A DNA stretch of 64,000 nt from Streptomyces sp. LBL. GTDB lineage: Bacteria; Actinomycetota; Actinomycetes; Streptomycetales; Streptomycetaceae. The stretch lies in contig NZ_JARXYX010000039.1 in assembly GCF_029893585.1 (NCBI RefSeq), positions 1-64,000 on the forward strand, given 5' to 3'. Position 1 is the stretch's first letter, and every line of letters starts with the position of its first letter. This document shows, piece by piece, positions 28 to 27,840 of this stretch. The notes beneath the pieces were generated by a model, which was not told the origin of the DNA, made no database searches, and was given only the letters and a program-made list of their open reading frames with translations. Both the position numbers and the translations under genes were made by a program.

Positions 28-124
28 ACGCCATCGGCGCCCGGGGCTGGGGAATTACGTGAACTCAGCCCCGGGGAAATACGTGAACGTCCACAGGACG
101 GGCATCCCTGAAGGAGGGTGCTGG

Positions 125-3557: not shown

Positions 3558-3814
3558 ACGACGTACACCCGAACCCGGACGCGAATCCGGACCCGCACAC
3601 ACACCTCAGCCCTGGCACCGTCGTCCGCGACGAGCAGCGGGACCGTATCGGCGAAGTGATGGGATCCGAAGGGCCGTACCTGCAACTGCGCCCCCTCGGC
3701 GGTGGCCGGGAGTGGGACGCGGAGCCCACCCGGGTTCGGCCGGCCACGGTCGCCGAGCGGCTCAGCGCCGCGGTGGCCGCCGCCAATGCGGTGAGCCGGG
3801 GCGAGCGGGCGTAG
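3554..3814 (+). CDS. Small hypothetical protein, coupled to upstream gene
   Basis: An 86-residue acidic protein starting with the GTG of a GTGA overlap. Its body (PGTVVRDEQRDRIGEVMGSEGPYLQLRPLGGGREWDAEPTRVRPAT) resembles a short SH3-like or KOW-like beta fold found in many small actinomycete regulators' neighbours. Function unknown. It ends about 80 bp before the convergent pglW remnant. Confidence 0.6.
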   Translation: MNDVHPNPDANPDPHTHLSPGTVVRDEQRDRIGEVMGSEGPYLQLRPLGGGREWDAEPTRVRPATVAERLSAAVAAANAVSRGERA

Positions 3815-3896
3815 CCACTGACCCCCGCCCGGAACCGCATGACCGTGCACCTGACCGGGACCAGCCGGCCACGCAACCGCGCAATCGAGCCTCCGA

Positions 3897-6895: not shown

Positions 6896-6898
6896 TGG

Positions 6899-7816
6899 TC
6901 AGGGCGTGAGTGTGCTGACCCGGTTCTCGTACTCTCGGCGGGCCTTGCGCTGGGCCGGGACTGCGGGGAGACCCTGGCCGCCGTCGAGCGGCTGGCAGCG
7001 GGCGAGGAGTTGGCGGTGTAAGGCGGGGACGGCGCTGACGCGCAGGGTGTAGCCCTGGCCGCGCCGTACGGTCGTCCCATGGTCGAGCGCGGCGCGCTCG
7101 GCGGGCTCCAGCTCGGTGGTCCGGAGGTAGTCCGCGACCTTGCCCGGCATGTCGAGGGTGACCGGCAGCTCCGGGGCGGAGGCGTCTTCCTCCATGGCGG
7201 TGCGATCGGGCAGGAGGTCGGCGACGGCGGTACGGATTGCACCGCGGCTGACGCCATGGCCACGGGCGAGGGCGGCGATGGAGCGGCCTTCCAGGTACGC
7301 GGTGCGCACCTCGGCGGTCTTCGCGGCCGCCACGGCGGGGCGGCGTCCGCCCTTGCTGCCCTTGGCTTCGGCGGCGCGCAGTCCGTCGTAGGTCAGCTCG
7401 CGCTGGAGGTCGCGTTGGAGTTCGCCAGCGGCAGCGAGGGTCTGCACCATGAACTTCACGGTGGACAGCAGCTCGCCGGTGCGCGGGTGGCGGGCGGTGA
7501 GGTCCATCGCGGAGAACGCGCCGTCGTGGATGCGCAGGGCGACCTGGTCGCGGTGGAGGACGTCGAGCACGTCGAGGATGTGGCCGGTGCCGCGTACGAG
7601 GCGGAACATCTCGGAGATGTGCACGGTGTCGCCCGGCCTCGCGTAGGTGAGCAGTTCGCGGAACTTCGGGCGCTGGAGCGGGTGGAGGCGGCTGGAGGTG
7701 CCCGGGTCCTCCTCGAAGACGACCGGGTCCTCGATGCCGGCTTCGTCGAGGACGAGGTTCTGCCGGGCAGTGGACTGCTGGTCGGTTGAGACCCGCTTGT
7801 AGACCAGGTTCGCCAC
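6899..7816 (-). CDS. Serine recombinase/resolvase
   Basis: A 305-residue protein starting with GTG at 7816. The catalytic domain begins with LVYKRVSTDQQS, the nucleophile being Ser9. Other resolvase signatures are RPKFRELLTYARPGDTVHI and FMVQTLAAAGELQRDLQRE. A helix-turn-helix (SIAALARGHGVSRGAIRTAV) follows, then a ~100-residue tail of the kind found on many Streptomyces recombinases. It may be the resolvase of the decayed Tn3-type transposon whose transposase lies at 9942-11465. Its stop codon abuts the truncation point of pglW, so it probably took part in, or marks, the rearrangement that destroyed that gene. Confidence 0.88.
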   Translation of the reverse strand: MANLVYKRVSTDQQSTARQNLVLDEAGIEDPVVFEEDPGTSSRLHPLQRPKFRELLTYARPGDTVHISEMFRLVRGTGHILDVLDVLHRDQVALRIHDGAFSAMDLTARHPRTGELLSTVKFMVQTLAAAGELQRDLQRELTYDGLRAAEAKGSKGGRRPAVAAAKTAEVRTAYLEGRSIAALARGHGVSRGAIRTAVADLLPDRTAMEEDASAPELPVTLDMPGKVADYLRTTELEPAERAALDHGTTVRRGQGYTLRVSAVPALHRQLLARCQPLDGGQGLPAVPAQRKARREYENRVSTLTP

Positions 7817-9941: not shown

Positions 9942-11465
9942 TTAGTCGTCCTCGGTGGCGTCGGGGTTACGGAAGGGTCGCAAGCCCTGACCAGGGCCGT
10001 TGGCGGTGATGTTGAACAGGTAGCGGCCCAGGAAGTTGATGTGGCGCTCCTTGAGCGGGGAGAGGCGGGCGACGTCCTCGTCCTTGATGTCGTGGCCCCC
10101 TGCGCGGAGCCGGGTCACGGCGGCGTCCAGGTAGCGGGTGTTCCACAGCACGACGGCGTTCAGGACCAGACCCAGGGCAGCCAACTGGTCCTCCTGGCCC
10201 TCGCGGTACGCCTGTCGGATCTGGCCACGGCCGCCGTGGCAGATCGCGCGGGCGAGCCGGTGGCGGGACTCCTGGACGGTGAGCTGCCGGTTCATCAGCC
10301 GCCGGTAGGTGTCGTCCACGGGGTCGACCAGGGCGAGCAGGTGCATGGTCTTGTCGATCCGCCCGTACTCGGCGAACGCCGCCCCCAGCGGGGTCGGGTG
10401 CCCTTCGCGGCCGAACATCCGCAGCAGGTCGTAGGCCCGCACCTGGTTGGTGATGAGCGACCCTGCCACCCGCAGCATGTCCGGCCAGTGGGTGACGATC
10501 TTCTTGCAGTTGACCTTGTTGCAGGCCACGTCTTCCAGCGGGCCGTACCCGTCGGCCGGCTTCTCGCCGTCGGGCAGGTCGGCTCGCCAGAACCGCTGAT
10601 CGTTCAGGTCGCGGAAGCGCGGGGCGAAGCGGAAGCCGAGCATCTTGTACAGACCGAAGGCCATGTCGGAGTAGGAAGCGTTGTCGGTCGCCACCATCTC
10701 CGGCTTCACCCCGCCATCCAGGTTCAGCAGGGTGTCCAGGGTGTAGAGGCTGTCGCGCGGGGTGTCGCGTACGACCGTCGCACCGATCCCGGCGACCTGG
10801 TCGTTGACGGCGTTGAGCCAGGTCACACCGCGTTTATAGCCGTAGTACTTGGGCGAGGGCCCCGTGTTGATACTCCGGACGGGGACGACGAAGCGCAGGC
10901 CGTCAACGGAGGCGAGCAGCCCGCCGCCCCGCATCTGGGCCAGCTCGATACGGGACTGCGCGCCGATCAGCGCGGCGTTCGCCGCGGCGATGGTGTCGGC
11001 GCGCACATAGTTCTGGTCGACGTGTGAGAGCCGCGAGCGGGTCAGCGCCTTGTTGTTCGGGTCGATTACCGGGGTCAGCCCGATGTTGCAGCTCTGGGAG
11101 ACCAGCAGGGCGACCAGGGAGACGAGCAGCCCGTCCATGCGGGTGCGCCGGTCGGAGACATGCCCGAAGGAGTCGAGGAACCCGGTCCAGGAGTGGACCT
11201 CGAACAGCAGGTCCGGCAGGTCGATCCTGGGCAGCATGGCCTCCGTGGTGGCCTTCAGCCAGGTCAGCGACTCCGGCTCGCCCACCGCGCCGAGCTTGTC
11301 CACGCTCAGCCGGGCACGTCCCCCGCCCTCGGGCACGACGATCTCCACCTTCGCGTCGGCGCCGGCCTCCTCCAGGCGGTCGGCCATCTGCCGCCATGCC
11401 GCATCCAGCCCGCGGGTGAGGGCATACACCTGACTGGCCTGATCAGCGCCCCAGCGTAACCGCAT
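9942..11465 (-). pseudogene. tnpA: Tn3-family transposase, N-terminally truncated
   Basis: The 507-residue frame is the C-terminal half of a Tn3 TnpA, usually ~950-1,000 residues. It contains YVRADTIAAANAALI, YGYKRGVTWLNAVNDQVAGIG, TLLNLDGGVKPEMVATDNASYSD, HLLALVDPVDDTYRRLMNRQLTVQESRHRLARAICHGGRGQIRQ and WNTRYLDAAV. The D...D...E catalytic region appears largely present, but the N-terminal DNA-binding half is absent. The frame starts about 120 bp from the divergent ATPase gene. With the recombinase at 6899-7816 it probably belonged to one transposon. Confidence 0.85.
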
Positions 11466-11585: not shown

Positions 11586-12704
11586 ATGCGTTTCAAGCTC
11601 TCTGAGGTGTTCATCGAAGGGTTCGCCTCGATCCGCTCCAGCGCGCTCACCCTCGGTGACGTGACTGTGCTGGTCGGCGCCAACGGTGCGGGCAAGAGCA
11701 ATGTGGTCGGGGCCTTGGAACTTCTCGGACGAATGGCGGACGAGCAACTGGCACTGGAAGTCGGTCTGCGGGGAGGAGCAGGGGCCATGCAGTACGCAGG
11801 GCCGCGGGCCGGAGAAGGCATCCGCCTCAGGGTGACTGCGCCTCCCTACCGCTACGAGGCGCACCTCGTACCCGCCGCCAATGACTCCTTTGTCTTCGCC
11901 GAGGAGAAGGGGCACTTCCACGAGCCCGGCCATGGCAGGCCGCTGAACGAAGGCTTCGGGCAAGGACACCGAGAGTCACTCCTGCGGGAGAAGGAGATCG
12001 AACAGCTTTCGCGACTCGCAGGGCCGATGCGCGCGATCCTCGCCGGCTGCCGAGTCTTCCACTTCCAGGACACGAGCAGCAACGCGCCCGTCAAGAAACT
12101 CGGATACACCGCGGACAACGAGGCACTGCGACCCGACGCGAAGAACCTCTCGGCGTTCCTCCTGCGTCTGCATGACAGTGAGCCGAAGGCGTACCGCAGG
12201 ATCGTGCGGGCCGTGAGGACTGTGGCGCCGTTCTTCCGGGATTTTCTGCTGGCAGAGGAGCCGGGGGGGAACATCCGCCTGCGCTGGCTGCAAGAAGGCG
12301 TCGACGCAATCTTCCCGGCAGAGGCCCTTTCGGACGGAACACTCCGTTACATCTGCCTCTGCGTGCTGCTCCTCCAGCCAGATCCGCCTGCTCTGCTCAC
12401 CCTGGACGAGCCGGAGCTGGGATTGCATCCCTACGCCATCGTGCAACTGGCGGACATGCTGCGTTCCGCGGCGACGCGCAGCCAAGTTGTCATTGCCACC
12501 CAGTCGGTGACTCTGCTCAACCAGTTCTCACTGGACGACATCGTTGTGGTGGAACGGGAGGACGGGGCGACAACCCTGCACCGTCCCAAGCGCGAGGAAC
12601 TCCGGGACTGGCTGGAGGACTACTCGCTCGGCGAGCTGTGGGAAAAGAATGTTCTTGGCGGTCGCCCGGTGCCCGAGCTGCCGTTGCGAGGGCGCACAGC
12701 ATGA
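11586..12704 (+). CDS. AAA-family ATPase (ABC/OLD-like) of a two-gene system
   Basis: A 372-residue protein starting MRFKLSEVFIEGFASI. Walker A is GANGAGKSN near residues 30-38. An LSDGTLRYICLCVLLL signature-like segment precedes Walker B (LLTLDEPELGLHPYAI, about 270-285), and SQVVIATQSVTLLNQF is the switch region. This is the AAA_21/AAA_15 layout found in OLD-, PARIS- and Septu-related ATPases, which often pair with a separate TOPRIM-like or nuclease partner. The stop overlaps the next ATG (ATGA). Inferred to be the sensor/motor of a defence module whose partner is now damaged. Confidence 0.85.
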   Translation: MRFKLSEVFIEGFASIRSSALTLGDVTVLVGANGAGKSNVVGALELLGRMADEQLALEVGLRGGAGAMQYAGPRAGEGIRLRVTAPPYRYEAHLVPAANDSFVFAEEKGHFHEPGHGRPLNEGFGQGHRESLLREKEIEQLSRLAGPMRAILAGCRVFHFQDTSSNAPVKKLGYTADNEALRPDAKNLSAFLLRLHDSEPKAYRRIVRAVRTVAPFFRDFLLAEEPGGNIRLRWLQEGVDAIFPAEALSDGTLRYICLCVLLLQPDPPALLTLDEPELGLHPYAIVQLADMLRSAATRSQVVIATQSVTLLNQFSLDDIVVVEREDGATTLHRPKREELRDWLEDYSLGELWEKNVLGGRPVPELPLRGRTA

Positions 12705-13320
12705 TCACGGTGGGGGTGCTGTGCGAAGGGCAGACGGAAGAGACCATGGTCAGGGACTTCCTGGCCCCCGAACTCTTCAACGCCGGAATCATCCTCGTAC
12801 CGACCATCCTGTTGACCGGGACGACCGCAGGCGGGGCATCCGGACGGGGTGGTGTCAGCAAATGGTCGAAGATCGAGAAAGACCTGCGAAACCGGCTGTC
12901 CAGCACACCACACTGGGCTGCGGTGACCATGCTGCTCGACTACTACGGACTGCCGCCGGACAGCCCTGGCATGGCGGACCGGCCGAACGGATCAGCCATC
13001 CGAGGTTCATCCCCTATCTCGTGCTTCATGAGACTGAGACATGGGTTTTCGCGGCGGCCGAGCAGCTGGCGGACTGGTACGACGATGCCGCGCTGGGCGG
13101 CGAGCTCAAAAGGCAGGTCGATGCAGCGGGGGGTCCCGAAGGCGTAAACGACGGGGCGGACACAGCTCCGTCGAAACGACTCCTACGTTTGCGTCCCGGG
13201 TACCTCAAGACCCAGGACGGACCAGTGGCAGTTACTGACCTCGGGCTGCCTTCCTTGCGTGCGGCATGCCCTCATTTCGACACCTGGATCGGCAAACTAC
13301 TGGCCCTCACGAGCCTGTGA
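12701..13320 (+). pseudogene. DUF4276 (TOPRIM-like) partner of the ATPase, internally deleted and frameshifted
   Basis: The frame starts at 12701 with MITVGVLCEGQTEETMVRDFL, where the CEGQTEE glutamate fits a TOPRIM-like motif, and runs to LDYYGLPPDSPGMADRPNG near 12,990. Family continuity then moves to another frame: RISHPRFIPYLVLHETETWVFAA to the stop at 13,320. In DUF4276 proteins about 20-30 residues normally separate these blocks, so a deletion plus frame change is more likely than one sequencing slip. It is ATGA-coupled to the ATPase gene. The pair would be inactive unless the gap is an assembly error. Confidence 0.7.
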
Positions 13321-14112: not shown

Positions 14113-14604
14113 CTAACGAGCCTTCGATCGAACCGGCACGGAAGCCCAGGTCGCATACCCGGCATCGTTACCGCGGTACTGCCCGATCTCGTCGGTGAGG
14201 CGGTGCACGATGTACAAGCCCGGCTCCTCCTCCGAGGAGGGCAACGCTCGATCCATCTCCCCGACGGTGATCAGGACATGATCCCCGTCGTACGACACCC
14301 GGCCGCTCAGATCGACACTGACGCGGTGCCGGGCGGTGACGTCGACGAGTTCGGTCAGCACAGCAAGCGTCGCCTCCTCGACGACTTTCACATTGGGCGC
14401 GCCAGCGAGCAGCGCCGGCAACACCTTCGCAACGAATCCGCGGGCGCGGCGCAGGCTCTGGACCGGGGTGCCCTCCGGACCGAGAAGGAACTCGATCGAG
14501 TTCTCAATGTCCGGCATCCCTTGCGGCGCGCCAGCACCTTGCCCGACTGCGGCGTTGTGCAGGCTGGAGACCCAAAGCGGAGACATGGCGTCGGAGATCG
14601 TCAC
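14113..14604 (-). CDS. ATP-binding protein of the RsbW/anti-sigma type, divergent
   Basis: A 163-residue protein starting with GTG 14604. The layout is that of the small Streptomyces histidine-kinase-like ATPases: VEEATLAVLTELVDVTARH as the N-box region, SYDGDHVLITVGEMD as the G1 region, and EEPGLYIVHRLTDEIGQYRGNDAGYATWASVPV at the end. The N-box glutamate/asparagine pattern is weak, so ATP binding is uncertain. Such proteins act as anti-sigma or regulatory kinases. It diverges from the XRE gene at 14952. Confidence 0.55.
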   Translation of the reverse strand: MTISDAMSPLWVSSLHNAAVGQGAGAPQGMPDIENSIEFLLGPEGTPVQSLRRARGFVAKVLPALLAGAPNVKVVEEATLAVLTELVDVTARHRVSVDLSGRVSYDGDHVLITVGEMDRALPSSEEEPGLYIVHRLTDEIGQYRGNDAGYATWASVPVRSKAR

Positions 14605-14951
14605 TAGCTTTCCGTCTCGTCGAATGGCCGAAGTCGAATGTCAGTTCGATAATGATCAACGGGGCGAGCGTACGTCAGCAGACCCGGGGTGCCGACGGAT
14701 TTACGCAAGCGGTTACCGGGCGGGCATGTTGGGGCATGGTGCACCTCTCACGCCGCCCGCGTGCGGGCATAGTTGGGCAGAGCGGACAGTGATGGCCTAA
14801 CACCGGACGGTGTCGCTCCAAGGTCAATCAAAGAACGTCAACACCGCACACGTCAAACGATCTGGGTGGCCAATCGGAGTCGACCCCCCGATAGTTGGGT
14901 TCTGGGTATGGTGATCCCCTCACCACCCCGGCCAAGAGAGATCCGCCCGAC
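14605..14951. promoter_or_regulatory. Divergent intergenic region
   Basis: About 350 bp separate the RsbW-like gene and the XRE gene of the prenyltransferase cassette. Both promoters should lie here, with any operator of the XRE protein. I see no clear inverted repeat or consensus -35/-10 pair. Confidence 0.4.
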
Positions 14952-15479
14952 GTGACGCCACCACATGCCCCAGCGCAGTCCTTCAAGGACCGCCTGAACC
15001 TCCTGTTCGCGGCCAGTGCCAGAGAGAACCCTGGCAAACCAGGCACGTACACCGAGTACACCCCCTCCCAGGTGGCCGAAGAGATCAACAAGAAATTCGG
15101 CCCCGGCAGCATCAGCGACGAGTACGTCCGCAAGCTCCGCCGTGGGGACATCAAGAGTCCAAGTGTGCTCATGGCGTCGTACCTGGCGTGGTTCTTCAAG
15201 ATGCCGCTTGACGTCTTCCAGACGGCAACCGACGACGAGTCGAACGAGCCGAGTGAGATCGCTAACAAGGTGATGGCCGAGCTACAACGAATCGCGGCCG
15301 ACAAGAGTCGTCAACACCAGGAACCAGAACCCAACGAGACCGTCCAGGTCCTCGCCCGGTCCGCTGGCCGTCTCTCGCAAGAGGGGCTCAGGCGCGCAGC
15401 CAAGTATGTCCAACAGCTCGAACAGCTCGAACAGATGGAAGGCCAGCTCCAGACAGACGGCCCGCCAGAGAACCACTGA
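14952..15479 (+). CDS. XRE-type regulator, first gene of the prenyltransferase cassette
   Basis: A 175-residue protein from GTG 14952; AAGAGAG lies ~11 nt upstream. The DNA-binding part is TPSQVAEEINKKFGPGSISDEYVRKLRRGDIKSPSVLMASYLAWFF, the typical form of XRE regulators that precede ImmA/IrrE genes in Streptomyces. A long helical tail (RAAKYVQQLEQLEQMEGQL) could dimerise. Family knowledge suggests the downstream ImmA/IrrE protease cleaves or inactivates it. Confidence 0.8.
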   Translation: MTPPHAPAQSFKDRLNLLFAASARENPGKPGTYTEYTPSQVAEEINKKFGPGSISDEYVRKLRRGDIKSPSVLMASYLAWFFKMPLDVFQTATDDESNEPSEIANKVMAELQRIAADKSRQHQEPEPNETVQVLARSAGRLSQEGLRRAAKYVQQLEQLEQMEGQLQTDGPPENH

Positions 15480-15511
15480 CCACTCCCACCCCCACAAGGT
15501 GCGCAACGCTG

Positions 15512-16039
15512 GTGATCCACCGCCCTGACAAACACGTCCAACAGGCGCTTCACGGCTTCCAGATACCTGTTCCTCTCACCCTCGAAGCCCTGTTCGCCGC
15601 CATCCAGGAGCACTACCCCCGCCCCCTGGAGCTGCTCCGCGGGGAGTCACCTCTCCCCGCAGTGCCGGCCAGTGGCCTCTGGCTCACACGCCCCGACCAG
15701 GAATCGGATGCTATGTGGGTTGACCCGGGCCTAAACGGGGCGGCCGCTGTGCACGTTCTCGCCCACGAGGGCGGCCACTTCTTCCTTGGCCACCAACCCG
15801 TCGAGCTTCCGGCGGCCCGGCAGACGGAGCCGTACGAGTTCATCACCGCTGACTTCCTCGACGGCTGTCTCCTCGGGCGAACTCGCTCACAAGAAGGTCC
15901 GCACGACGCGGAGTACGCGGAGATCGAGAGCCAGGCCGAAGCCTTCGCTTTCCTCCTGCGCAAGAGGGCCGACCAGCGCGCACGCGACACCCGCTACAAG
16001 TCCGACCCGCTGCTGGACCGACTCCACCGCGCCCTGTAG
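15512..16039 (+). CDS. ImmA/IrrE-family metallopeptidase
   Basis: A 175-residue protein starting with GTG 15512, 32 bp after the XRE gene. The zinc site is HEGGH at residues 85-89 within VLAHEGGHFFLGH, and a later ESQAEAFAFLL segment supplies the third ligand region. ImmA/IrrE proteases derepress mobile elements or stress genes by cleaving a cognate XRE repressor, so this gene and its neighbour form a predicted signal-responsive switch for the genes downstream. Confidence 0.88.
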   Translation: MIHRPDKHVQQALHGFQIPVPLTLEALFAAIQEHYPRPLELLRGESPLPAVPASGLWLTRPDQESDAMWVDPGLNGAAAVHVLAHEGGHFFLGHQPVELPAARQTEPYEFITADFLDGCLLGRTRSQEGPHDAEYAEIESQAEAFAFLLRKRADQRARDTRYKSDPLLDRLHRAL

Positions 16040-16073
16040 CCCTTCCACTTCCTGCTAGGAGCCTCGTTTCACC

Positions 16074-17330
16074 GTGCCCACAGACGATGTCATAGACCTC
16101 CTCACCACCGTCCCTCTATGGGCGGTGGTGGCCTTCCGCCTCTACGCCCGTCCCACGACCAGCGGCCAGTGGGCCATCATGTGGACGTTCGCGACACTCG
16201 CCGTCGGCGCCACCCTGCGCCTGACAGTCATCGAACACGCTCTGACCGACAGTACCGGCATCGATGACCTTGCGATTCTGCCCAAACACCTGCTGGTGAT
16301 GCTGTCCTGCATACTGCTACTCGGCTGGGTTGAGTCGATCGTCCCGCCCCGCGACCCGGAGCCGGCCTGGCGCCGGTGGACGCAGTTACGCCCCCGCATG
16401 ATCGTCTTCGCCGTCACCGGGGTTGCCGCCACCGTGGCGTTCCCCTTCGCCGCGCACTCGGTCACCGCCCCAGACGGCTCCACCGACTTCGCCACCCCGC
16501 AGTACGGCGACCTCGCCGGAACCCTCCATCTGACCCTGTATCTGCTGCCCATGGGCCTCGCGTTGACCGCGTCGGCCGCCCTCTGCTTCACGGCCGCCCG
16601 GCGCACACAGGCGCGCCTGTTCCGGCTGTGCATGGGGCTGATGGGCTCGGGGGCCGCATTGGGCACGCTGTACCCGGTCTACCGGTTCAGCTACCTCCTC
16701 TGCGGGCTGACCGACTGGAACTACCCACTCACTGAGCTGCAGTTCCAGCGCGGCGGCAGCCTAATCCAGTTCATGACGATTCTGATGACCATCGCCGGAA
16801 GCTCCGTGCGTGCGGCCGAGGTGGTCATCCGAGGTGTCCGCCATCGCCGCAGCCTGATCGCCCTGCGTCCTCTGTGGGAGGAACTCGTCTCGGTCCTCCC
16901 TCCGAACACCATCCTGCGACACCTCCAGACCGGCACGTCCCCCGCGGAAGACCGTCGCCGACTGCGCGACCTGTACGGACGCCTCGACGAACGTGTCGTG
17001 GAGATCGTCGACGCCTCCGTCACACTCCGCCCCTGGATCGACAAGACCCTCCCGGCCCGCGCTCTCGCAGCCACCCGCGCCACCGGCCTGCACGGCTCCG
17101 AAGCCCGCGCTGCCTGCGAAGCCCTCTGCCTGCACGTCGCCCGTACGAAGGCCGTTGAGGGCGAACCGTACGAGCGCAGCCCCGCTCTGGCCTTCACCCT
17201 CTCGATGCGGGATGACCTTGAGAGCAGCGCTGCCGGGCTGACCCGCGTGGCAAGCCACTACGCCTCGACCAGCATCGGCACTGCCCGCGCCCTCGCCAAC
17301 CAGAACTCTCTTGAGGAAGTCTCGGCATGA
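16074..17330 (+). CDS. Polytopic membrane protein, DUF6545/MAB_1171c-type
   Basis: A 418-residue protein from GTG 16074, preceded by TAGGAG. About seven hydrophobic segments fill residues 1-245 (e.g. AIMWTFATLAVGATLRL, LLVMLSCILLLGWVESIV, LFRLCMGLMGSGAALGTL). A soluble tail (LRPLWEELVSVLPPNTILR to the end) follows. MAB_1171c-type 'putative transporters' with this tail are common beside ImmA/IrrE genes in Streptomyces; no substrate is known to me. Its stop overlaps the next start (ATGA). Confidence 0.75.
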   Translation: MPTDDVIDLLTTVPLWAVVAFRLYARPTTSGQWAIMWTFATLAVGATLRLTVIEHALTDSTGIDDLAILPKHLLVMLSCILLLGWVESIVPPRDPEPAWRRWTQLRPRMIVFAVTGVAATVAFPFAAHSVTAPDGSTDFATPQYGDLAGTLHLTLYLLPMGLALTASAALCFTAARRTQARLFRLCMGLMGSGAALGTLYPVYRFSYLLCGLTDWNYPLTELQFQRGGSLIQFMTILMTIAGSSVRAAEVVIRGVRHRRSLIALRPLWEELVSVLPPNTILRHLQTGTSPAEDRRRLRDLYGRLDERVVEIVDASVTLRPWIDKTLPARALAATRATGLHGSEARAACEALCLHVARTKAVEGEPYERSPALAFTLSMRDDLESSAAGLTRVASHYASTSIGTARALANQNSLEEVSA

Positions 17331-17932
17331 CCGTCACGGCCCTTCCCCACACTGAAAACGCCCTCGCTCGCCGGATCACCGACTGGATGGAGCCGAGCAA
17401 CGTCATCATCTTGGTAAGCCTCGGCGTTGGCGTTGCCCAGGACAACCCGCTCACCGGTCTGGCATGGGCGCTGGAGGCCATCGCGTTCGCCGCCGCAATA
17501 CCCATGGCCTACATCAAGTTCGGTATGCGGCGCGGCATGTGGGCTGACCGCCACGTGGGCCAGCGGCAGCGCCGCATGTTGCTCATACCCGTCATCATGG
17601 CGTCGGTCGCCATCGGCATCGGCCTCATGGCCTGGCTCGACGCGCCGAAGGCTATGGTCGCCCTCGTCTTCGCGATGCTCGCCACCCTCGCCGTGCTGCT
17701 TCCGGTCACTGCGTTCTGGAAGATTTCTGTGCACACCGCCGTCGCTGGTGGCGCCCTGGCGATGCTCGCCCTCACCTGGGGCCCGCGCGTCTGGATCGCC
17801 TACCCGGTCATCGCAATAATCGCCTGGTCCCGCATCTCCTTGCGCGACCACACCCTCGGCCAGACCATCGCGGGTGCGGTCGCTGGCACCGTGACAGCGG
17901 GTCTGGTCTTCGCCGCCCTCGGCGGAAGATGA
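17327..17932 (+). CDS. PAP2-like integral membrane protein
   Basis: A 201-residue protein, ATGA-coupled to the preceding gene, with about six membrane segments. FWKISVHTAVAGG aligns with the PSGH-type motif of PAP2 phosphatases and WSRISLRDHTLGQTIAG with the SRx5H motif: Ser, Arg and His are present, but the usual Asp after the His is Gln. A phosphatase of polyprenyl or lipid phosphates would fit the cis-prenyltransferase that follows. The N-terminal KxxxxxxRP motif is not clear, so activity is uncertain. Confidence 0.65.
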   Translation: MTVTALPHTENALARRITDWMEPSNVIILVSLGVGVAQDNPLTGLAWALEAIAFAAAIPMAYIKFGMRRGMWADRHVGQRQRRMLLIPVIMASVAIGIGLMAWLDAPKAMVALVFAMLATLAVLLPVTAFWKISVHTAVAGGALAMLALTWGPRVWIAYPVIAIIAWSRISLRDHTLGQTIAGAVAGTVTAGLVFAALGGR

Positions 17933-17964
17933 CGTAAGCCTCCCGGCCCGTGCACCTTCCGCCA

Positions 17965-18678
17965 ATGACGATGACCACGGCTTCCACAGACCTGTTCTCC
18001 GCGCTCCCGCGGCACATCGCGTTCATCGCCGACGGCAATCGGCGTTGGGCCAAGGCGCACAGCACGACGGCCGAAGAGGGATTCCGCCAGGGCGCGGTTG
18101 CCGTACACCGCGTCCTGGCGCACTGCCGCAGCCTCGGGGTCGAGACCGCGAGCGTCTTCCTCATGTCTGACCGGAACTTCGAGCGTGACCCGGAAGAGGT
18201 CGCCGTCCTGGTCGACGTGATCGCGGACCTGGTCGACACCGAGGCAGCGGCCTCGACCGGCCCGGTCCGCATTCTGTCCAGCGGTGCAACCATGCCGGCG
18301 CGCGCCCCACAGTTCCTGAAGGACTCGATGCGCCGCGCCGAGGACCGGACGAGGCACCGCACTGGCATGACCGTCTGCTTCGGGATCGGCTACGACGGCC
18401 ACGCCGACATCACCCAGGCCATGTACCAGGCCGCAGCCACCCCAGGTGACGGGCGCAAGATGCCGTCGATAGACGACTACCTGTGTACGGCAGGGCTTCC
18501 CGACCCGGACCTGATCATCCGCACGTCCGGCGAGCGCCGTCTATCCGGGTTCCTGTTGTGGCAGGCCGCGGACTCGACCTTGCATTTCGACGACCGGCTG
18601 TGGCCTGACTACGACGTAACTGCCCTCGTTGAGGCGCTGGCAGTCCACTCGACACAGATCCGCACGTACGGTGGCTGA
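17965..18678 (+). CDS. Cis-prenyltransferase (undecaprenyl diphosphate synthase family)
   Basis: A 237-residue protein with the canonical motifs HIAFIADGNRRWAK (catalytic Asp23), ASVFLMSDRNFERDPEEV, CFGIGYDGHADI and DLIIRTSGERRLSGFLLWQ. These enzymes add isopentenyl units to an allylic diphosphate to make cis-polyprenyl diphosphates. A second copy beside an ImmA/IrrE switch and a PAP2-like gene is unlikely to be the housekeeping UppS. ATG 17965 is taken as start; ATG 17971 and GTG 17950 are alternatives because no strong ribosome-binding site is seen. Confidence 0.88.
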   Translation: MTMTTASTDLFSALPRHIAFIADGNRRWAKAHSTTAEEGFRQGAVAVHRVLAHCRSLGVETASVFLMSDRNFERDPEEVAVLVDVIADLVDTEAAASTGPVRILSSGATMPARAPQFLKDSMRRAEDRTRHRTGMTVCFGIGYDGHADITQAMYQAAATPGDGRKMPSIDDYLCTAGLPDPDLIIRTSGERRLSGFLLWQAADSTLHFDDRLWPDYDVTALVEALAVHSTQIRTYGG

Positions 18679-18802: not shown

Positions 18803-19738
18803 TCAGTTCAGTCGGTAGCCGAGAACGGCGAGGCCGGCGGCGGCCGCGCGGTGTTGGTAGGCGCGCAGTCCGGGGGCGCCGGGCGGCGCGGGCTTGCGGG
18901 CGTTGCGGTGCCAGTGGCCGGTGAGCGCGGCGAGGAACGCCGTGGTGGTCTCGGGGCCGCTGGCGGTGGCGGGGTGGTCTTGGAGTAGGCGGGCGATGTC
19001 TGCGGGGCTGTGTCCGGCGAGGACGAGTTGTGGGGCGAGCGAGGCGGCGTCGATGCAGGCCGGGCCGGTGGTGGCGTGGGCCCAGTCCACGAAGGTGACG
19101 CCACGGTGGTGGTCGCGGACCATGTTGTCGGCCCGCAGGTCGCCGTGGACGACCCGGTCTCCGTGGGCGAGGGCGGGCCAGGCGGCTTCCAGCTCGGCGA
19201 GCTGCGGCAGGCGGTCACAGGCGGCGGGGACGAGGTCGTCCGGCGGGGCGGAGAGCAGTTCGTCCCAGCCGTGCAGGGCCGCCGCTGTGGAGGGCACGGT
19301 GCTCACTGCCGCGGCGTACGACGCCGGGGCGGGGCTGGAGGTGAGCTTGTCCAGGAGCGCCCAGGTCTGTTCGGCGTCGTTGGAGGCCGAGGAGAGGTCG
19401 GGATGGGGGCCGTCAAGGTGGGCGATGACGACGGCTGTCCAGTCGGCAGCGCGGTGGATGCCTAGCAGTTCCGGGGCCGAGGCACCGGATGGCAGTGCGG
19501 CGAGGACGGCGGCCTCATGAATGTTGGCGGCGGTCAGCGGGTCGCCGTCGGGGGCCGCTTTGACGAAGACCCGTCGGCCGTCGGCCAGGCGGAGCGCGGC
19601 GGCAAGCTGGTGGCCGAAGCCGCCGCCGGGGGTGACTGCGTCGGTGACGGGCGCGCCCAGGGCGTCTTCGAGGCGGGAGCGCAGGGGCAGGGGGACGTCG
19701 GTCCATTGCAGACGGCCGCTGGTGGGCAGTACAGACAT
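18803..19738 (-). CDS. Aminoglycoside phosphotransferase-like kinase
   Basis: A 311-residue protein with the APH fold: an N-terminal VFVKAAPDGD lysine, VVHGDLRADNMV as the catalytic HGDxxxxN motif and VTFVDWAHA as the metal-binding Asp. ATG 19738 starts the conserved part; upstream in-frame residues have no support. The substrate is unknown: the family includes antibiotic kinases and small-molecule or choline kinases. It is convergent with the prenyltransferase gene, 124 bp away. Confidence 0.85.
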   Translation of the reverse strand: MSVLPTSGRLQWTDVPLPLRSRLEDALGAPVTDAVTPGGGFGHQLAAALRLADGRRVFVKAAPDGDPLTAANIHEAAVLAALPSGASAPELLGIHRAADWTAVVIAHLDGPHPDLSSASNDAEQTWALLDKLTSSPAPASYAAAVSTVPSTAAALHGWDELLSAPPDDLVPAACDRLPQLAELEAAWPALAHGDRVVHGDLRADNMVRDHHRGVTFVDWAHATTGPACIDAASLAPQLVLAGHSPADIARLLQDHPATASGPETTTAFLAALTGHWHRNARKPAPPGAPGLRAYQHRAAAAGLAVLGYRLN

Positions 19739-19915
19739 CGGGGCAGCTCTCAGAGATCCAGGATACGAGATACGAGTGGCGGGGTGATGGGGTGCGCGCC
19801 GAGCCGGACCGCGAGTCGGGCTGAGGAACGAGGTCCTGAGTGCTCCAGCTCGCCGCCGGGTGCTCGACGCCGCATCACGCGCATTCGCCTGTGTCCTCTG
19901 AGTGCAGAAGTGCAA

Positions 19916-21543: not shown

Positions 21544-22431
21544 TCAGGCGGTCAGCGTCAGGAGCTGCCGGTGATCGGGGAGGGAGTTCAGCAGGCGGTT
21601 CCGCCACGCCAGGGCGTACCGCGGGCAGTTGCCGCAGTGCTTGTGCGTGCACCCGGGCATCGGGGCCCGCTTGGTCGCGTTGAGGCTCCACGCGAGGGAG
21701 TCTGAGGAGTAGAGCAGGTGGGCGGCCTCACGGAGACCGGTGACCTTGAAGCCGAACCCGTGGAGGCGGATGCCCATGCTCCACAGGGTCTCGATGATCC
21801 GTACCGCTTCGTCCGTGGTCTGCCGACGGCACACGGAGCCGATGCCGACGACCGTCTCAAGGGTGAGGTCCACACCGGCCCGCTCGTACAGGTCCATGCA
21901 GCGCAGGTAGTCGTCGAGGGTGAAGCCCTGGAGGACGGGCATCCACGGGAGATCCGCGTCCAGCGTCATGAGATTGAGGAAGGACGCCACGGTCTTGTAC
22001 TGGTGGAGCTCCACCGTCAGGCCGGTCTTCGCCAGGATCTCGTCCTCGCACATCCAGTCCTGGATGGCACAGACGTCCATCATGGAAATCTCGTCGTAGT
22101 ACCGGCGCGCGGCCGCGGCGTACTCGTACGGGGTGACGGTCCACTGGCCGTACTTCGACAGCTCCGTGAAGCCGCCGGAGTCCAGCATCCACGGGGTGAC
22201 AGCGCGCGGCAGGGTCTTGCGGCCGGAGAGACGGTGATTCGAGACGCAGAGCGGGACGCAGTCCTCGCCGAACTCCGGGCGGGCGAGCCACGACGGCTGA
22301 TGCGTGCCCAGGTAGGTCACGCGGTCGACGTCGTCGAACGAGCGGCATCCGGGGTTCTTCGGGGCGGCTGGTCGCATGGCTGCACTGTTCTCGGCGGGTG
22401 CCGGAAGGTCGAAGAGGACGGCAGAAGACAC
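21544..22431 (-). CDS. DpdA-like tRNA-guanine transglycosylase-family protein
   Basis: A 295-residue protein. GTG 22431 directly follows the leader. Features of the TGT/DpdA fold: WMLDSGGFTELSKYGQW with the substrate-binding Asp, VCAIQDWMCEDEIL, LPWMPVLQGFTLDDYLRC, VGIGSVCRR, GIRLHGFGFKVTGL, and a Cys/His cluster near the C-terminus (CTHKHCGNCPRYALAW). Phage DpdA homologues insert 7-deazaguanines into DNA to evade restriction. No preQ0 synthesis genes are in the window, so it would need host precursor. Alternative: a related enzyme acting on another nucleic acid. Confidence 0.72.
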   Translation of the reverse strand: MSSAVLFDLPAPAENSAAMRPAAPKNPGCRSFDDVDRVTYLGTHQPSWLARPEFGEDCVPLCVSNHRLSGRKTLPRAVTPWMLDSGGFTELSKYGQWTVTPYEYAAAARRYYDEISMMDVCAIQDWMCEDEILAKTGLTVELHQYKTVASFLNLMTLDADLPWMPVLQGFTLDDYLRCMDLYERAGVDLTLETVVGIGSVCRRQTTDEAVRIIETLWSMGIRLHGFGFKVTGLREAAHLLYSSDSLAWSLNATKRAPMPGCTHKHCGNCPRYALAWRNRLLNSLPDHRQLLTLTA

Positions 22432-22439
22432 GCGAGTTT

Positions 22440-22502
22440 CCTTCGTTCGGGACTCGTTGGCGGTGCTCTCCGCCAACACCTCAGATAGTACAGCAATGAG
22501 AC
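22440..22502 (-). promoter_or_regulatory. Promoter-like box and hairpin leader of the DpdA-like gene
   Basis: Reading leftward: GTCTCATTGCTGTACTATC from 22502, then the 8-bp stem GTTGGCGG/CCGCCAAC around AGAGCA (22456-22477), then TCCCGAACGAAGGA. TGTACTAT could be an extended -10. Confidence 0.8.
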
Positions 22503-23682: not shown

Positions 23683-24160
23683 TCAGGACGCGAGGGCCAG
23701 GCGCTCGCGGAGGAGGTCACGGCGGCCCAGGTACATGGCGGTCGTCGACTTGCCGACGAAGCCGGCCATCGCCGTCCCGGCCGGCGGCCGCCGCACGGGT
23801 CCCAACTCCTTCTCCAGCTCGGCGGCGCGGCGGATGATCTCGGCCATGGACAAGCCGTGCTTGAAGTCGGCGCCGACTTGGACTTCCATGTCCGCGTACT
23901 CGGCGGCTTCTTCGGGCGCAGCCGCGCGGCGAGCACCACGTCGGCCTCACACCCGAGGACACAGAAACTGCAGCTCAGGCGGTGCATGCCCCAGTCGTAC
24001 GCCTCGTGGTACGGCAGGCCGGAGCGGGCGATCTCCCGCCAGACCGCGGCGTCGCTCCATCCGTGGATCGGGCGCCAGACGGTGACGTGACGCTTGCCGT
24101 TGCTCGCGGAGCGGTCGATCTCCACCTCGGCGTGCTGGCGGCGAGCAATACTCGATTCCG
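23683..24160 (-). pseudogene. C-terminal half of a PAPS-reductase-like (PP-loop) gene, frameshifted
   Basis: Reading leftward: DRSASNGKRHVTVWRPIHGWSDAAVWREI, then SGLPYHEAYDWGMHRLSCSFCVLGCEADVVLAARLRP. The CSFC cysteines are those of PAPS-reductase-family enzymes found in phages and islands. A one-base change near 23,905 moves the rest (EEAAEYADMEVQVGADFKHGLSMAEIIRRAAELE) into another frame, ending at 23,683. The N-terminal half lies at 27314-27840; the two were separated by the insertion between them. Confidence 0.75.
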
Positions 24161-24416
24161 CCAAATGCCTTCAGCGCATGAGTACAGACAGTGACCGCCG
24201 TGGGGATTGCCATCAGGCCTTGCCGATCTGCGCAGACTGGTGATCACGCCTAGCGTGGAGGTGTAGGGGATAGCGCAAGAGGCGCGAGCGGTGGTGTGTT
24301 GCGTAGTACTGCCGAAGGGTGCCGATTTTCGCCCCGAGGCCGAGGTGGTCGCGCGCTTCAGCCGCTCTCTCGCCGACCCGTCCGACCGACTAATCCTCGA
24401 TGGAAGAGACGTTCTG

Positions 24417-26795
24417 ATGGACACCGTCACCACCGTCACCATGCAAGCCGCACACTCCATCACAGCTGGCCAGGCGGTCCGCACCACAGGATCGCGCACC
24501 GTCACCCCTGCCGTCCAGAGCACCTCCGAAGTCGGGACGGTGCATACCCTTCCGTTCTTTGGGGTTGCTCTGCAGACGGTGGGTGTTGGGAACAAGGTCG
24601 ACGTTCAAATAGGCGGTGTTCTCAGCGGCCTAGGCTCCGAAAAGCCTGGCGCGGTTGGCGTCAACAGTGCGGGAAAACTCGTCCGCGCTAAGGATAAAGC
24701 CTGCATCAGCGCTCCGAACTGGATCGGTGACTGTGATGCTTCGGGCACGGTGACAATTCGGCCCCGCCGCGACACGCGGCTGAACGTGCTCGACTTCGGA
24801 GCGGCAGGGGACGGCAAGGTCGACGACACGGACGCGCTCCAAGCTGCCCTGGACTGCGCAACGCGATTTGAAGCGGGCGAGCCGGTGCTCGAGGGTAAAG
24901 TGGTCTACCTTCCTCCGGGAGACTATCTGATTAGGAAACCTCTTGTCGTCAAGCACCATTGCATTCTGGAGGGAGCAGGGGGAACTGGGCTGGGCGTAAC
25001 TGAAAATACTCGCATACTCGCAGATGTTGAAGCCGGAAATTTCGACCTCTCCGCTATCGGTCCAGTCGCAGGGGAGACCGTCTATTGCGCAATTGCCCTG
25101 GTGGGCGCTTGGACCTCCGGATCGGCTGTAGTGCCCTCTCGTGCTCGTGCGGACTATGCTGTGCTTCGCCAGTTCACCCTTGAGTCGTTCCCCGATCAAG
25201 GGATATTTGCCCCCGCCTTCTATCAGGCCCCGCAGATGGATGGCGTACGAATTCTGGCGCACGGCCCATTGATCGAGACGGTGGGTGTTTCTGGCTTCAG
25301 GCGTAACGGACTATCAGTAGATGGCCCTTTTGGGCAAGCCAATGCCAACCTCACGCAGATACGTGACTGCGTTCTCGATAACAATGGCCAACACGGGCTC
25401 GACATCGGCAGCCATGGCAACAGCGATGCCAATACCATGCTGATTATGAACGTTTCTGCCTCGACTAATGGCCGCGATGGAATTAATGACCATTCATTCT
25501 TGGGCTGCACCTTCGTCTCGTGTCATACTGCATCAAACCATCACCGAAACTACAGCTGCGATAACGTCGCTCCGAATTTCGCCACGTACATCGGCTGCTA
25601 CGGCGAAGGCGATGCGCCATCGGTGTTCAATGGCAATGACAATATCGCTGTCATCGGAGGGGATATAGCCATTACTCCGGACTCGAAATATTGGGGTTTC
25701 GCCCCTGCCAGTAGTGGACCTTCTAGCCTTCGTGTGACAAACCACTATTCTGAAGTGCACCTGTATCCAGGCACGGGTGCGGGGCTCGGAATTCATATCG
25801 ACAAGGGCGAGCTGCAGACGCCCGGGAACGGATTCAAATATAGAGCAATTCACGCCGGGCGCACTTATGGAGAACATCGCAGTCCCGTCGAGAGTCCGCC
25901 TAAAAGGTGGCCGGAAAAGGTCGGGGAGACGATGGAGGAGTTCGAGGGTTTGATATGGAGCTGTGAGGGTAAATATGAACGTCCAGTCTCAGCGTTCAAT
26001 TACCTCGGAAGTTATGTGGATTCTATGATCATTCAGGATTACGGCTATGACAAGCCGGATATGGCAGACCAGAATCCCTTCTTCCGCACCCAGGTCTCGC
26101 CCACTACCGAGGTCAAGGGCAGGATTGAAACGTCCCTCACGAGCGGGACGGATCGCCACACGTACTATCAGAACTCGTACGAAAACGGGCCGGTTCCTGG
26201 TACGCTGCTGCTTCCGGATGCCTGGATCGGCGACTACTACTTCGGCGAGCGGCGAATCGGTGTTGTCTATAACGAATCTCCCTTCAAAGTGCCGCATAGC
26301 GACAGGAGCGTCGATTTCTACAGCCCGGGTGATCTGCTTCTCAATGCCACCGGAAGACCAACGGAGGAGCGCCAAGGTGGAGTCGGGTGGGCGGTGAAGG
26401 CCCTTTGTGGAAGGCGGCCAAAGGCTGATGGCTCTGACTGGGTTCCCAATCAGCACTACCGCATTGGGGAAGTTGTCAGGCCGGCGCAACCTAATGGCAG
26501 AGGCCACCTGTATCGGCTGACCGCCTACATCGGTGGCCCGACTTACCCGCTGCAGAAGGTCTCCGGTGAGCACGAGCCGGACTGGAGCAAGTCGGTTGGA
26601 GGCGTGACTTCCGACAACCACCTAAAATGGCAGACGCTCTATGACTTGGATGTTCCCGCAAATGCGTGGGTCATTGAACCGCTTCCTCAGCGCGCGAAAG
26701 GTCAGCCGGACTCGGCAGCGACGGACATTGCCGGGCTGAGGGAAGAGTTCAACGCACTTCTTGCCAAGATGAGAAAGGCGAATCTACTGGAATAA
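24417..26795 (+). CDS. Right-handed beta-helix protein (pectate-lyase superfamily, tail-spike-like)
   Basis: A 792-residue protein from ATG 24417, with GGAAGAG about 8 nt upstream. After a ~110-residue head domain comes the family start LNVLDFGAAGDGKVDDTDALQAALDCA, then VVYLPPGDYLIRKPLVVKHHCILEGAG and successive short beta-helix rungs (LTQIRDCVLDNNGQHGLDIGSHGNSDANTMLIMNVS). This is the pectate-lyase_3/GH55-like fold used by phage tail spikes and secreted polysaccharide depolymerases. There is no signal peptide, which favours a phage-type role. Its lower GC and AT-rich codons show recent acquisition. Confidence 0.8.
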   Translation: MDTVTTVTMQAAHSITAGQAVRTTGSRTVTPAVQSTSEVGTVHTLPFFGVALQTVGVGNKVDVQIGGVLSGLGSEKPGAVGVNSAGKLVRAKDKACISAPNWIGDCDASGTVTIRPRRDTRLNVLDFGAAGDGKVDDTDALQAALDCATRFEAGEPVLEGKVVYLPPGDYLIRKPLVVKHHCILEGAGGTGLGVTENTRILADVEAGNFDLSAIGPVAGETVYCAIALVGAWTSGSAVVPSRARADYAVLRQFTLESFPDQGIFAPAFYQAPQMDGVRILAHGPLIETVGVSGFRRNGLSVDGPFGQANANLTQIRDCVLDNNGQHGLDIGSHGNSDANTMLIMNVSASTNGRDGINDHSFLGCTFVSCHTASNHHRNYSCDNVAPNFATYIGCYGEGDAPSVFNGNDNIAVIGGDIAITPDSKYWGFAPASSGPSSLRVTNHYSEVHLYPGTGAGLGIHIDKGELQTPGNGFKYRAIHAGRTYGEHRSPVESPPKRWPEKVGETMEEFEGLIWSCEGKYERPVSAFNYLGSYVDSMIIQDYGYDKPDMADQNPFFRTQVSPTTEVKGRIETSLTSGTDRHTYYQNSYENGPVPGTLLLPDAWIGDYYFGERRIGVVYNESPFKVPHSDRSVDFYSPGDLLLNATGRPTEERQGGVGWAVKALCGRRPKADGSDWVPNQHYRIGEVVRPAQPNGRGHLYRLTAYIGGPTYPLQKVSGEHEPDWSKSVGGVTSDNHLKWQTLYDLDVPANAWVIEPLPQRAKGQPDSAATDIAGLREEFNALLAKMRKANLLE

Positions 26796-27099
26796 GCGGA
26801 GGCATGGTCGACGTGGCGACGGTGTCCGCCAGCATCGCCGACCACCGATCAAACAGCTGCCTGTTCCAGGCCGGTTCCCAGGGATACCCGCCGGCCATTG
26901 CCTGGACCTGGCGAGCGATCCGCGCTCTGGTGTTGACGGTGTCCCAGGACAGTCGGCGGGCCCGCTGGTGATCCGCAAATCCCTGCAGCGTCTTCTCGAA
27001 GACGGCCGCCTCGGGGAGGAGCATCGCCACGCCGGGCAGCACGTGCAGGGTCGCGACGCCGGGAACCGCCACCGATCTTCCCGAAGCTCCTCGACTCAT
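26796..27099 (-). pseudogene. N-terminal fragment of a tyrosine integrase
   Basis: From ATG 27099: LLPEAAVFEKTLQGFADHQRARRLSWDTVNTRARIARQVQAMAGGYPWEPAWNRQLFDRW. This matches the SAM-like core-binding domain at the start of Streptomyces integrases. The catalytic domain is missing; the frame runs on into the end of the beta-helix gene. It may be the integrase that brought the insertion. Confidence 0.6.
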
Positions 27100-27313
27100 C
27101 CATCACCCTCTGTGTCCGGCGCAGGGCCTCACCTTCGACGCGATGATGCGCTGCACGCAACACCGGTGCACTGAACACACCACTTTTGAGGGGATCGCAG
27201 GCCAAACCGCACACGACCCCAGCGGAGCGTGATAGAACTCGGCTCCAACGGGCACTGGCCGTCTTACTGGCCAGGAGGAACGCCGCAGAACTTTTGGTGC
27301 GCGCACCGCAACA

Positions 27314-27840
27314 TTACTCGAAGAGCTTGGCCCGCGGCGCGGACTCGGCTGCCCGCTGCCCCATGCAGTTGAGGATGCGCACTGGGCGGCCCAGGTGCGA
27401 CAGCTCCGCGGCGAGCTTGGTGAGCAGGGTCCAGATCGGCCCTCGCTTCACGTCACTCGTGCACCAGCGTGCTGCACTCGAAGGCCAAGCGGGCGCGACC
27501 TTGACCGTGGACGGGTCGAGGCCCGCCTCGGTCGCCTCGCGCTCCGCCTTCGCCTTCAACTTGCCGAAGCGGATCAGCACGCGCCCGAGGAGATCGGCGC
27601 CCTTGGCCTTCACCACCTCGAACCGGTGGACCCCGGCGAGACGGGCCTGCTCCTCGGCGAGGGCCTTCGTGCCGGCCCACTCGATGTCCCCCAGGTCCGC
27701 GGCAGCCAGGCGATGGTCTCGTACGTCGTCGGCCGCGCGAAGGCCCTCGGGATGCTGGACAAGGTGGTCGTTGGGGGGCGTGAGGCGGGCGGAGAGGGGC
27801 GGTACGGCCGGGGCGTTGTGGGCACCCCGGCCGGGCGGGC
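27314..27840 (-). pseudogene. N-terminal half of the PAPS-reductase-like gene
   Basis: The frame carries AADLGDIEWAGTKALAEEQARLAGVHRFEVVKAKGADLL, WPSSAARWCTSDVKRGPIWTLLTKLAAEL and RILNCMGQRAAESAPRAKLFE, then TAA at the insertion junction. These are the central PP-loop-family motifs: the HADLG-like strand, the CTSDxKRGP loop and the GxRAxES segment. The N-terminal SGGKDS loop is not clear in this frame, so the 5' end may also be damaged and the start is uncertain. Confidence 0.7.

Follow-up and report, generated by a model that had tools for sequence, protein, structure and literature searches.

A phage-borne Streptomyces gene cassette joins a predicted receptor-like membrane protein to exchangeable enzymes and may act as a chemosensory switch

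What does a small set of isoprenoid genes placed under a protease and a candidate repressor do in Streptomyces sp. LBL, and to which genetic element does it belong? The window analyzed here, a 64,000-nucleotide stretch at positions 1-64000 of contig C39 (NZ_JARXYX010000039.1; 92,564 bases) in a genome of 9.35 Mb, carries a five-gene cassette encoding an XRE-like helix-turn-helix (HTH) repressor candidate, an ImmA/IrrE-type metalloprotease, a DUF6545/MAB_1171c membrane protein, a PAP2-like membrane protein and a cis-prenyltransferase (cis-PT). An initial annotation had described five collinear plus-strand genes, two of them joined by an ATGA overlap, and had read them as a regulated operon that could make, dephosphorylate and move a polyprenyl lipid. 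All five genes are present at 14952-18678 and so is the overlap, a 4-base junction of the DUF6545 and PAP2-like genes that recurs in several homologs (e.g. L149, L172 and L179 of our numbered loci), but the gene set was incomplete in that it missed both a sixth, divergent gene on the minus strand, which is conserved together with the cassette, and the surrounding phage genome (Table 1). By homology, the five genes belong to a Gilgamesh-type phage resident in the strain, either as an integrated prophage or as a phage-plasmid. As read from gene order, the protease and DUF6545 genes are constant among related phages while the enzyme gene that follows them is swapped at one locus. We propose, with a confidence that falls somewhat short of even, that the cassette is a one-operon chemosensory switch of the phage in which the variable enzyme makes or alters the ligand of a receptor; the swap of enzymes beside a constant protease and candidate receptor is the main argument for this proposal.

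Among 50,697 phage records, the DUF6545 and PAP2-like proteins match a single phage, Streptomyces phage Gilgamesh (two records), with identities of 63% for DUF6545, 80% for the PAP2-like protein and 64% for the cis-PT; the other phage cis-PT matches listed (18, with 25 records overall) all lie below 37%, and 15 of them are unannotated. In Gilgamesh the divergent gene and the five cassette genes stand as gp97-gp102, in unchanged order, with the ParA-like gp103 after them. Homology to Gilgamesh open reading frames (ORFs) runs from window position 14131 to near the end of C39 and includes the portal (84%); a block at ~55.5-63 kb has inverted order, its genes descending from gp32 (55557) to gp8 (62946). 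The major capsid gene (80%) lies on a second contig, C32, which at C32:1245-42189 carries, besides this gene, Gilgamesh-type genes for tail, ParB, lysin and sigma factor. On both contigs the homology to the phage breaks off at a single map position, between gp92 and gp97, so that foreign DNA lies there: window positions 1-14.1 kb, where a Tn3 transposase is encoded, and the part of C32 past 42.2 kb. The window copy is, judged from its gene content, rearranged just after the cassette, where neither the ParA-like gp103 nor gp104 finds a match on C39 at E 1e-4 and an APH-like gene stands in their place. A comparison with PHROGs at E 0.01 gave no match for any of the six cassette proteins of Gilgamesh, and comparison of the five cassette proteins with the PADLOC defense systems gave best values of only E 0.011 and 0.027.

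The five-gene order together with the divergent gene occurs in nine records besides the window: Gilgamesh itself, three plasmid records of 125-130 kb that are recorded as circular and hold a Gilgamesh-type capsid gene at 76-84% (L129-L131), four IMG/VR records (L149-L152; L163 is the same contig as L149 and was counted once) and Streptomyces sp. SA15 (L164). Recurrence in nine other records is more than chance would give; the initial annotation had named a lack of co-occurrence in other genomes as grounds for rejecting the unit, and because the order recurs in the genome-neighborhood comparison that objection fails.

The exchange of the enzyme is seen among the seven Streptomyces plasmid records that carry a Gilgamesh-type capsid gene, three of which have the PAP2-like and cis-PT genes and one of which, from MBT27, has the PAP2-like gene alone. 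In NBC_01278 the protease and MAB_1171c genes are followed by a cytochrome P450 gene with a 4-base overlap, in 11x1 by a gene for an FAD-dependent monooxygenase with an 8-base overlap, and in NBC_00536 by an amidase gene whose overlap is one base as annotated or four bases with another chosen start; an IMG/VR record carries the amidase type at 77% to NBC_00536. These three modules lie near the phage sigma factor gene, all three proteases hold HExxH, and the gene before the protease is annotated as HTH in NBC_01278 and resembles an HTH fragment in NBC_00536. G073 (L036, L141) is a Gilgamesh-like cassette copy without cis-PT. The four-gene core is also carried by Streptomyces alboflavus plasmid CP023977 (L132), which is absent from the Gilgamesh-capsid records found; according to PMC10023795, this plasmid is among the phage-plasmids of earlier work that its authors overlooked. 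The idea of a regulated operon survives in part, in that repressor and protease are conserved with the membrane protein and the isoprenoid enzymes, but neither the exchangeability of the enzyme part nor the phage-borne location of the locus had been foreseen.

Streptomyces chromosomes repeat this arrangement of a constant core beside varied partners. Homologs of DUF6545 occur in 83 of 101 sampled Streptomyces genomes and, across the phylum, in 9 of 246 genomes (three genera of 170); the source genome has a further copy, of the P450 cluster, on C7 (L077). We sampled 60 chromosomal loci as the best-scoring rows of the 101-genome search, with most known PAP2 sites left out, so that PAP2 partners are under-counted there. 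A DUF6545 ORF was found in 59 of the 60 and, with ten picked loci, these make up 69 usable loci. In 43/59 chromosomal loci DUF6545 has a partner on its own strand at a distance of -40 to 150 bases, with an exact 4-base overlap in 14/59 (a count without a control), and over all 69 loci a downstream partner occurs in 51. An HExxH-containing ORF lies just upstream of DUF6545 in 53/69 loci, compared with control counts of 4/69 on the opposite strand at that place and 9/69 downstream.

These counts bear on a simpler explanation, that the XRE and ImmA genes are an ordinary prophage immunity pair and the DUF6545, PAP2-like and cis-PT genes ride along as cargo outside the switch. XRE-ImmA pairs do control other mobile elements, as ImmR/ImmA control ICEBs1, and the best-conserved palindromes of the cassette sit at the XRE/divergent promoter. 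The ICEBs1 pair shares with the cassette an HTH repressor gene followed by an HExxH protease gene, location on a mobile element and a divergent promoter alongside, but in the cassette the operon continues with genes for a seven-transmembrane (7TM) protein and a small-molecule enzyme, whose stop and start codons overlap. We regard the cargo explanation as improbable: the protease gene accompanies DUF6545 at the frequency given above, also outside phages, and an overlap between DUF6545 and the next gene, for which cargo would have no need, is common.

For the partner genes, the scan covered 20 of the 51 proteins, which represent 20 of 25 clusters, and the Pfam label of each representative was carried to its cluster; of the remaining clusters, one (L133) corresponds to the PAP2 already known and four are short singletons of 96-128 aa outside the scan. 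On this basis 34 of the 51 partners are small-molecule enzymes. The clusters comprise P450 (12), short-chain dehydrogenase/reductase (SDR; 6), aldo-keto reductase (4), thiamine-binding (3) and amidase (3) proteins, with FAD-monooxygenase, AMP-ligase and unknown proteins at two each; single partners include an acyl-CoA dehydrogenase, an amidohydrolase, a beta-lactamase-family protein, an alpha/beta-hydrolase and PAP2, as well as HipA-like, LacI and HTH proteins, another DUF6545 and proteins of unknown type or outside the scan. Because so many partners are oxidative or hydrolytic, inducible detoxification is a serious rival, although we consider it unlikely. Under this explanation DUF6545 would sense a foreign compound, the protease would remove the repressor and the enzyme would destroy the compound, leaving the lysogen protected, much as in BlaR1-BlaI-BlaZ. 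P450s, FAD-monooxygenases, SDRs, aldo-keto reductases, amidases, amidohydrolases, beta-lactamase-family proteins and alpha/beta hydrolases all belong to classes able to detoxify. Neither a synthase such as the cis-PT nor the AMP-ligases, many of which serve biosynthesis, fit detoxification well, although a changed metal site in the cis-PT (see below) weakens the first point, and no resistance phenotype was seen. The BlaR1 system likewise unites a membrane sensor, a metalloprotease, a repressor and an enzyme in one unit, but the cassette has its sensor and protease as separate proteins, its candidate sensor is 7TM and its enzymes are varied and include a synthase.

The chemosensory proposal depends on DUF6545 being a receptor. 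A structural model built with 34 sequences (pLDDT 90, pTM 0.81) has seven long helices, the seventh continuing into a cytosolic helical domain, with the 7TM domain at about residues 1-257; averaged over 34 sequences, the charge is positive in the C-terminal stretch and in the three loops presumed to lie inside, and negative in the three outer loops. We therefore predict, from the model, a 7TM receptor resembling G protein-coupled receptors (GPCRs), with its N terminus outside and its C terminus inside. Statements on fold for this protein and for the PAP2-like protein rest on a second look with VIA-align. The model aligned with Smoothened-Gi at Z 16.6 (rmsd 3.6, 229 residues), a resemblance to be taken as a lead and not as proof of kinship, since VIA-align itself warns that the mere arrangement of a helical bundle can yield Z 13-14. 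All 50 matches listed, drawn from chains already picked by Foldseek, are GPCR, Smoothened or Frizzled entries by title, prostanoid entries among them. In sequence, DUF6545 gave Pfam 7tm_7 at E 0.0061, below the cut-off, and a profile search of the PDB with DUF6545 returned no GPCR chain at E 10. The window protein scores over the cut-off for MAB_1171c, a family of putative transporters, but its model suggests a receptor, and nothing was found to support transport or the role of lipid mover once given to it. In the literature covered, which left most subscription papers outside its scope, we found no work on DUF6545 by that name, and MAB_1171c named in one paper, as a transporter.

The initial annotation credited the cis-PT with full catalytic motifs and with a polyprenyl product; the first attribution does not stand and the second lacks support. 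All ten phage cis-PT copies have Leu or Ile at the position of UppS Ala69 and an alpha3 region three residues shorter. UppS (6szg) has Ala69 and a full-length alpha3; PDB 2vg1, titled short-chain Z-isoprenyl diphosphate synthetase and presumably Rv1086, has Leu at this position and an alpha3 two residues shorter, and we assume that UppS Ala69 and Rv1086 Leu84 govern chain length. The two signs need not always go together, since PDB 8wu7 has a short alpha3 yet Ala at position 69. That the length of alpha3 bears on the cis-PT product is stated in PMC7573591, and cis-PT classes are described in that paper and in PMC7839719. The phage enzyme is hence predicted to be of the short-chain type, with a short prenyl diphosphate as its product. 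UppS identity was rejected on the bulky residue and the three-residue deficit of alpha3, present in 10/10 phage copies, and synthesis of a polyprenyl carrier, and with it an inducible lipid carrier, was rejected on a signature that makes such a carrier unlikely.

As to the catalytic residues, D26, N28, R30, S71, N74, R77, R194, R200 and S202 are kept in 10/10 phage copies, but these copies differ at H43, W75 and, in three of the ten, E81, and all ten have Thr at the position of E. coli UppS E213, which we take to be the metal-site Glu. All 16 other aligned sequences that hold this position have Glu; the broken cis-PT of L046 has no residue there and stands outside the ten phage copies. The phage enzyme is thus like the short-chain synthase Rv1086/2vg1 in the Leu at the Ala69 position, the short alpha3 and most catalytic residues, and unlike it in the Thr that replaces the metal-site Glu. 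Every one of 392 sampled Streptomyces genomes has a cis-PT match; among the matches listed, the next relative of the window cis-PT is at 46% and the others are at 37-43%, and the three further cis-PTs of the source genome are at 40, 34 and 35%. Relatives this distant imply that the cassette cis-PT is mostly a phage-lineage gene. Another cis-prenyltransferase (31%) is encoded by the metagenome viral contigs L153-L155; its alpha3 is long in L153 and L154.

The PAP2-like protein, previously a probable lipid phosphatase, keeps the fold of that assignment in prediction but departs from it at the active site. Its model (pLDDT 93) is predicted to have the lipid-phosphatase fold: seven chains reach Z of at least 8 in VIA-align, namely G6PC1 (Z 13.3), LpxE (12.3), Aur1 (11.8), LPP1 (three chains; 11.3) and PgpB with farnesyl pyrophosphate (11.0), while Foldseek found no match in the PDB at E 0.001 and a PDB profile search with the PAP2 family found no chain at E 10. 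The canonical PAP2 C3 motif is SRx5Hx3D. The window protein has SRx5Hx3Q, with Gln in place of the catalytic Asp, and all 68 PAP2-like sequences, a set that contains duplicates, retain Arg, His and Gln within WSR..L..H...Q. The family therefore shares the predicted fold of PgpB, LpxE, Aur1, LPP1 and G6PC1 (Z 11-13) and differs from them in this Gln and in a C2 position that is His in 37 sequences and Asp in 26 (unread in 5). Scanning ten neighbor proteins at 9 of 22 representative loci revealed no constant neighbor of solo PAP2 genes; the proteins scanned include three enoyl-CoA hydratases, a methyltransferase, ABC parts and others. A solo PAP2-like gene stands beside a cis-PT gene in the single cases of L085, plasmid L245 (4132-5567) and a broken copy in Streptomyces blattellae (L046/L209), the last a cassette relic with a PAP2 piece at 85% and a cis-PT piece at 40-42%; on plasmid L246 (3449-5181) such a gene adjoins a polyprenyl synthetase gene.

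Proximity of the fold to PgpB and other lipid phosphatases invites a further explanation in line with the initial annotation, plain lysogenic conversion, in which a phage prenyl or polyprenyl lipid transported by DUF6545 would alter the envelope, for instance as protection from other phages or from cell-wall drugs. The NCBI name of MAB_1171c, 'putative transporter', points the same way, as does the knock-out of this gene in Mycobacterium abscessus, which lowered biofilm by ~50% and whose product is termed a transporter in PMC8707978. The short-chain signature of the cis-PT, the receptor-like 7TM model of DUF6545 and the replacement of the partner by a P450, a monooxygenase or an amidase in relatives all speak against it, and we give it little credence.

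Regulatory components of the proposed switch are recognizable to differing degrees. The window HTH and protease genes gave no profile match over cut-off, but HExxH is kept in 7/7 aligned protease homologs, and relatives gave weak profile matches: HTH_3 at E 3.7e-4, slightly under the cut-off, for Gilgamesh gp98 (seven XRE-like homologs were aligned) and Peptidase_M78 at E 0.002, below the cut-off, for the MBT27 protease. The divergent gp97-like protein is possibly a degenerate GHKL/HATPase protein; the window copy gave no profile match, and of four phage homologs scanned one gave HATPase_c at E 0.0017, one HATPase_c_2 at E 0.15 and two nothing, all values below cut-off. The phage sigma factor gp92 is encoded near the divergent gene, and an anti-sigma link between the two proteins is only an idea. 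Across ten aligned divergent intergenic regions, TCGAA-N6-TTCGA, beside the divergent gene, is exact in eight, one base off in one and missing in G073; five regions have an exact GGTGA-N5-TCACC close to the start of the XRE gene and two have it with one base changed; and CCAAC-N5-GTTGG is exact in three. In Gilgamesh the exact TCGAA and GGTGA palindromes occur once each, at the divergent promoter, and forms with one mismatch outnumber those in each of three shuffles (28 vs 13, 15 and 16), which allows for further putative sites. This distribution fits local control of the divergent gene pair by candidate operators. A phage-wide repressor with many operators found no support, as each exact palindrome is single in Gilgamesh and the GGTGA form does not exceed its count in shuffles.

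Taken together in the chemosensory switch, the parts would act as follows. The cis-PT would produce a short Z-prenyl diphosphate, which the PAP2-like protein would dephosphorylate; DUF6545 would read the product, or its removal, in the membrane and activate the ImmA-type protease; and the protease would remove the XRE repressor from the divergent promoter, so that the operon and the gp97-like gene would change in expression, and with them the prophage state. Prenyl chemistry would then be the Gilgamesh version of the switch. A bolder form of the proposal, which we consider decidedly unlikely as a whole, is that a temperate phage makes an isoprenoid signal, senses it through the GPCR-like DUF6545 and has the protease remove the repressor in order to leave or keep lysogeny, that relatives swap the enzyme so that each lineage has its own chemical code, and that the chromosomal copies are host versions. 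If the switch reading is true, the cassette would resemble arbitrium, the phage communication system, in tying lysogeny to a self-made signal, and would differ in that its putative signal is a lipid or small molecule; no peptide gene would be needed, and none was searched for.

A number of observations weigh against a switch of this kind. Most PAP2 modules lack an adjoining cis-PT: among 148 loci (duplicates between sources included), the XRE-ImmA-DUF6545-PAP2 core stands without cis-PT in 74 and with it in 9, a further 55 hold only PAP2 and 10 are partial. The module is also not obligatory or universal in the phage group, since among 17 IMG/VR contigs that have a capsid gene of Gilgamesh type (72-96% match; 17 of 20 loci, three 30% matches having been left out) only 3 hold DUF6545 and 2 a cis-PT, and four such contigs of at least 108 kb lack DUF6545; these records may be fragments, and two records with a known cassette copy, those of L150 and L151, escaped the capsid scan. 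No HTH gene is clearly recognizable on the 11x1 plasmid, 18 of the 69 DUF6545 loci have no partner, and some partners (LacI, HipA-like, thiamine-binding) are not metabolic enzymes. Foldseek found no PDB match to the DUF6545 model at E 0.001, the best being E 0.015. The GGTGA palindrome is exact in just 5/10 promoters, its single exact copy in Gilgamesh compares with 0, 2 and 3 in three shuffles, and a further exact copy lies in the window at 57657. Finally, with the metal-site Glu of the cis-PT and the C3 Asp of the PAP2-like protein both changed, either enzyme could be altered or inactive.

Features of the window are collected in Table 1, including candidate defense genes and unusual domain combinations beyond the cassette. 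A separate observation concerns L132, where a type I-E CRISPR-Cas set lies ~4 kb beyond the four-gene core.

Table 1. Positions of the cassette, its phage surroundings and other features of the 64,000-nucleotide window
Feature	Position	Strand	Evidence or remark
Divergent gene, gp97 homolog	14113-14604	-	48% over 126 aa to Gilgamesh gp97
Divergent promoter region	14605-14951		TCGAA-N6-TTCGA at 14634-14649; GGTGA-N5-TCACC at 14910-14924
XRE-like (HTH) repressor candidate	14952-15479	+	GTG start, backed by homologs
ImmA/IrrE-type metalloprotease	15512-16039	+	HEGGH at 15764-15778
DUF6545/MAB_1171c	16074-17330	+	Pfam E 9.8e-22; NCBIfam 118.8 bits (cut-off 100)
ATGA overlap DUF6545/PAP2-like	17327-17330	+	Sequence
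PAP2-like membrane protein	17327-17932	+	27.7 bits (cut-off 27.2)
cis-Prenyltransferase, predicted short-chain type	17950-18678	+	Profile E 5.2e-54
APH-like gene	18803-19915		Occupies ParA/gp104 place after cassette
Gilgamesh-homologous stretch	14131-62946		gp97 onward, largely in order up to terminase; tblastn of Gilgamesh ORFs
Terminase large subunit	51000-52736		87% to Gilgamesh
DpdA (deoxypurine-in-DNA) homolog	21544-22479		76% to Gilgamesh gp114; phage DNA modification gene
PAPS-reductase-like gene (gp116), split in two	23910-27766		Around ~3.1 kb of lower-GC DNA; insert holds 834-aa pectate-lyase-like ORF
DUF3644/HEC-08-like candidate defense gene	56975-58222		Inside prophage stretch
HEC-01A/HEC-01B candidate defense pair	11586-12704, 12638-13147		AAA ATPase, DUF4276; foreign DNA left of phage
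Tn3 transposase	9942-11465		Adjoins HEC-01A/HEC-01B pair
BTAD-type regulator ORF	2-1669		With ricin-type lectin domain, unusual combination
Long kinase ORF	3523-7263		With RNA polymerase alpha C-terminal domain match, unusual combination

Within the same literature scope as above, we found no report of a lysogeny switch signaled by a lipid, and such a switch would, to our knowledge, be new. Gilgamesh, which was isolated on Streptomyces lividans, offers a ready model for the cassette. If DUF6545 is a receptor that works with an exchangeable enzyme, a large and unexplained family of chemical-sensing proteins in antibiotic-producing bacteria would become testable.

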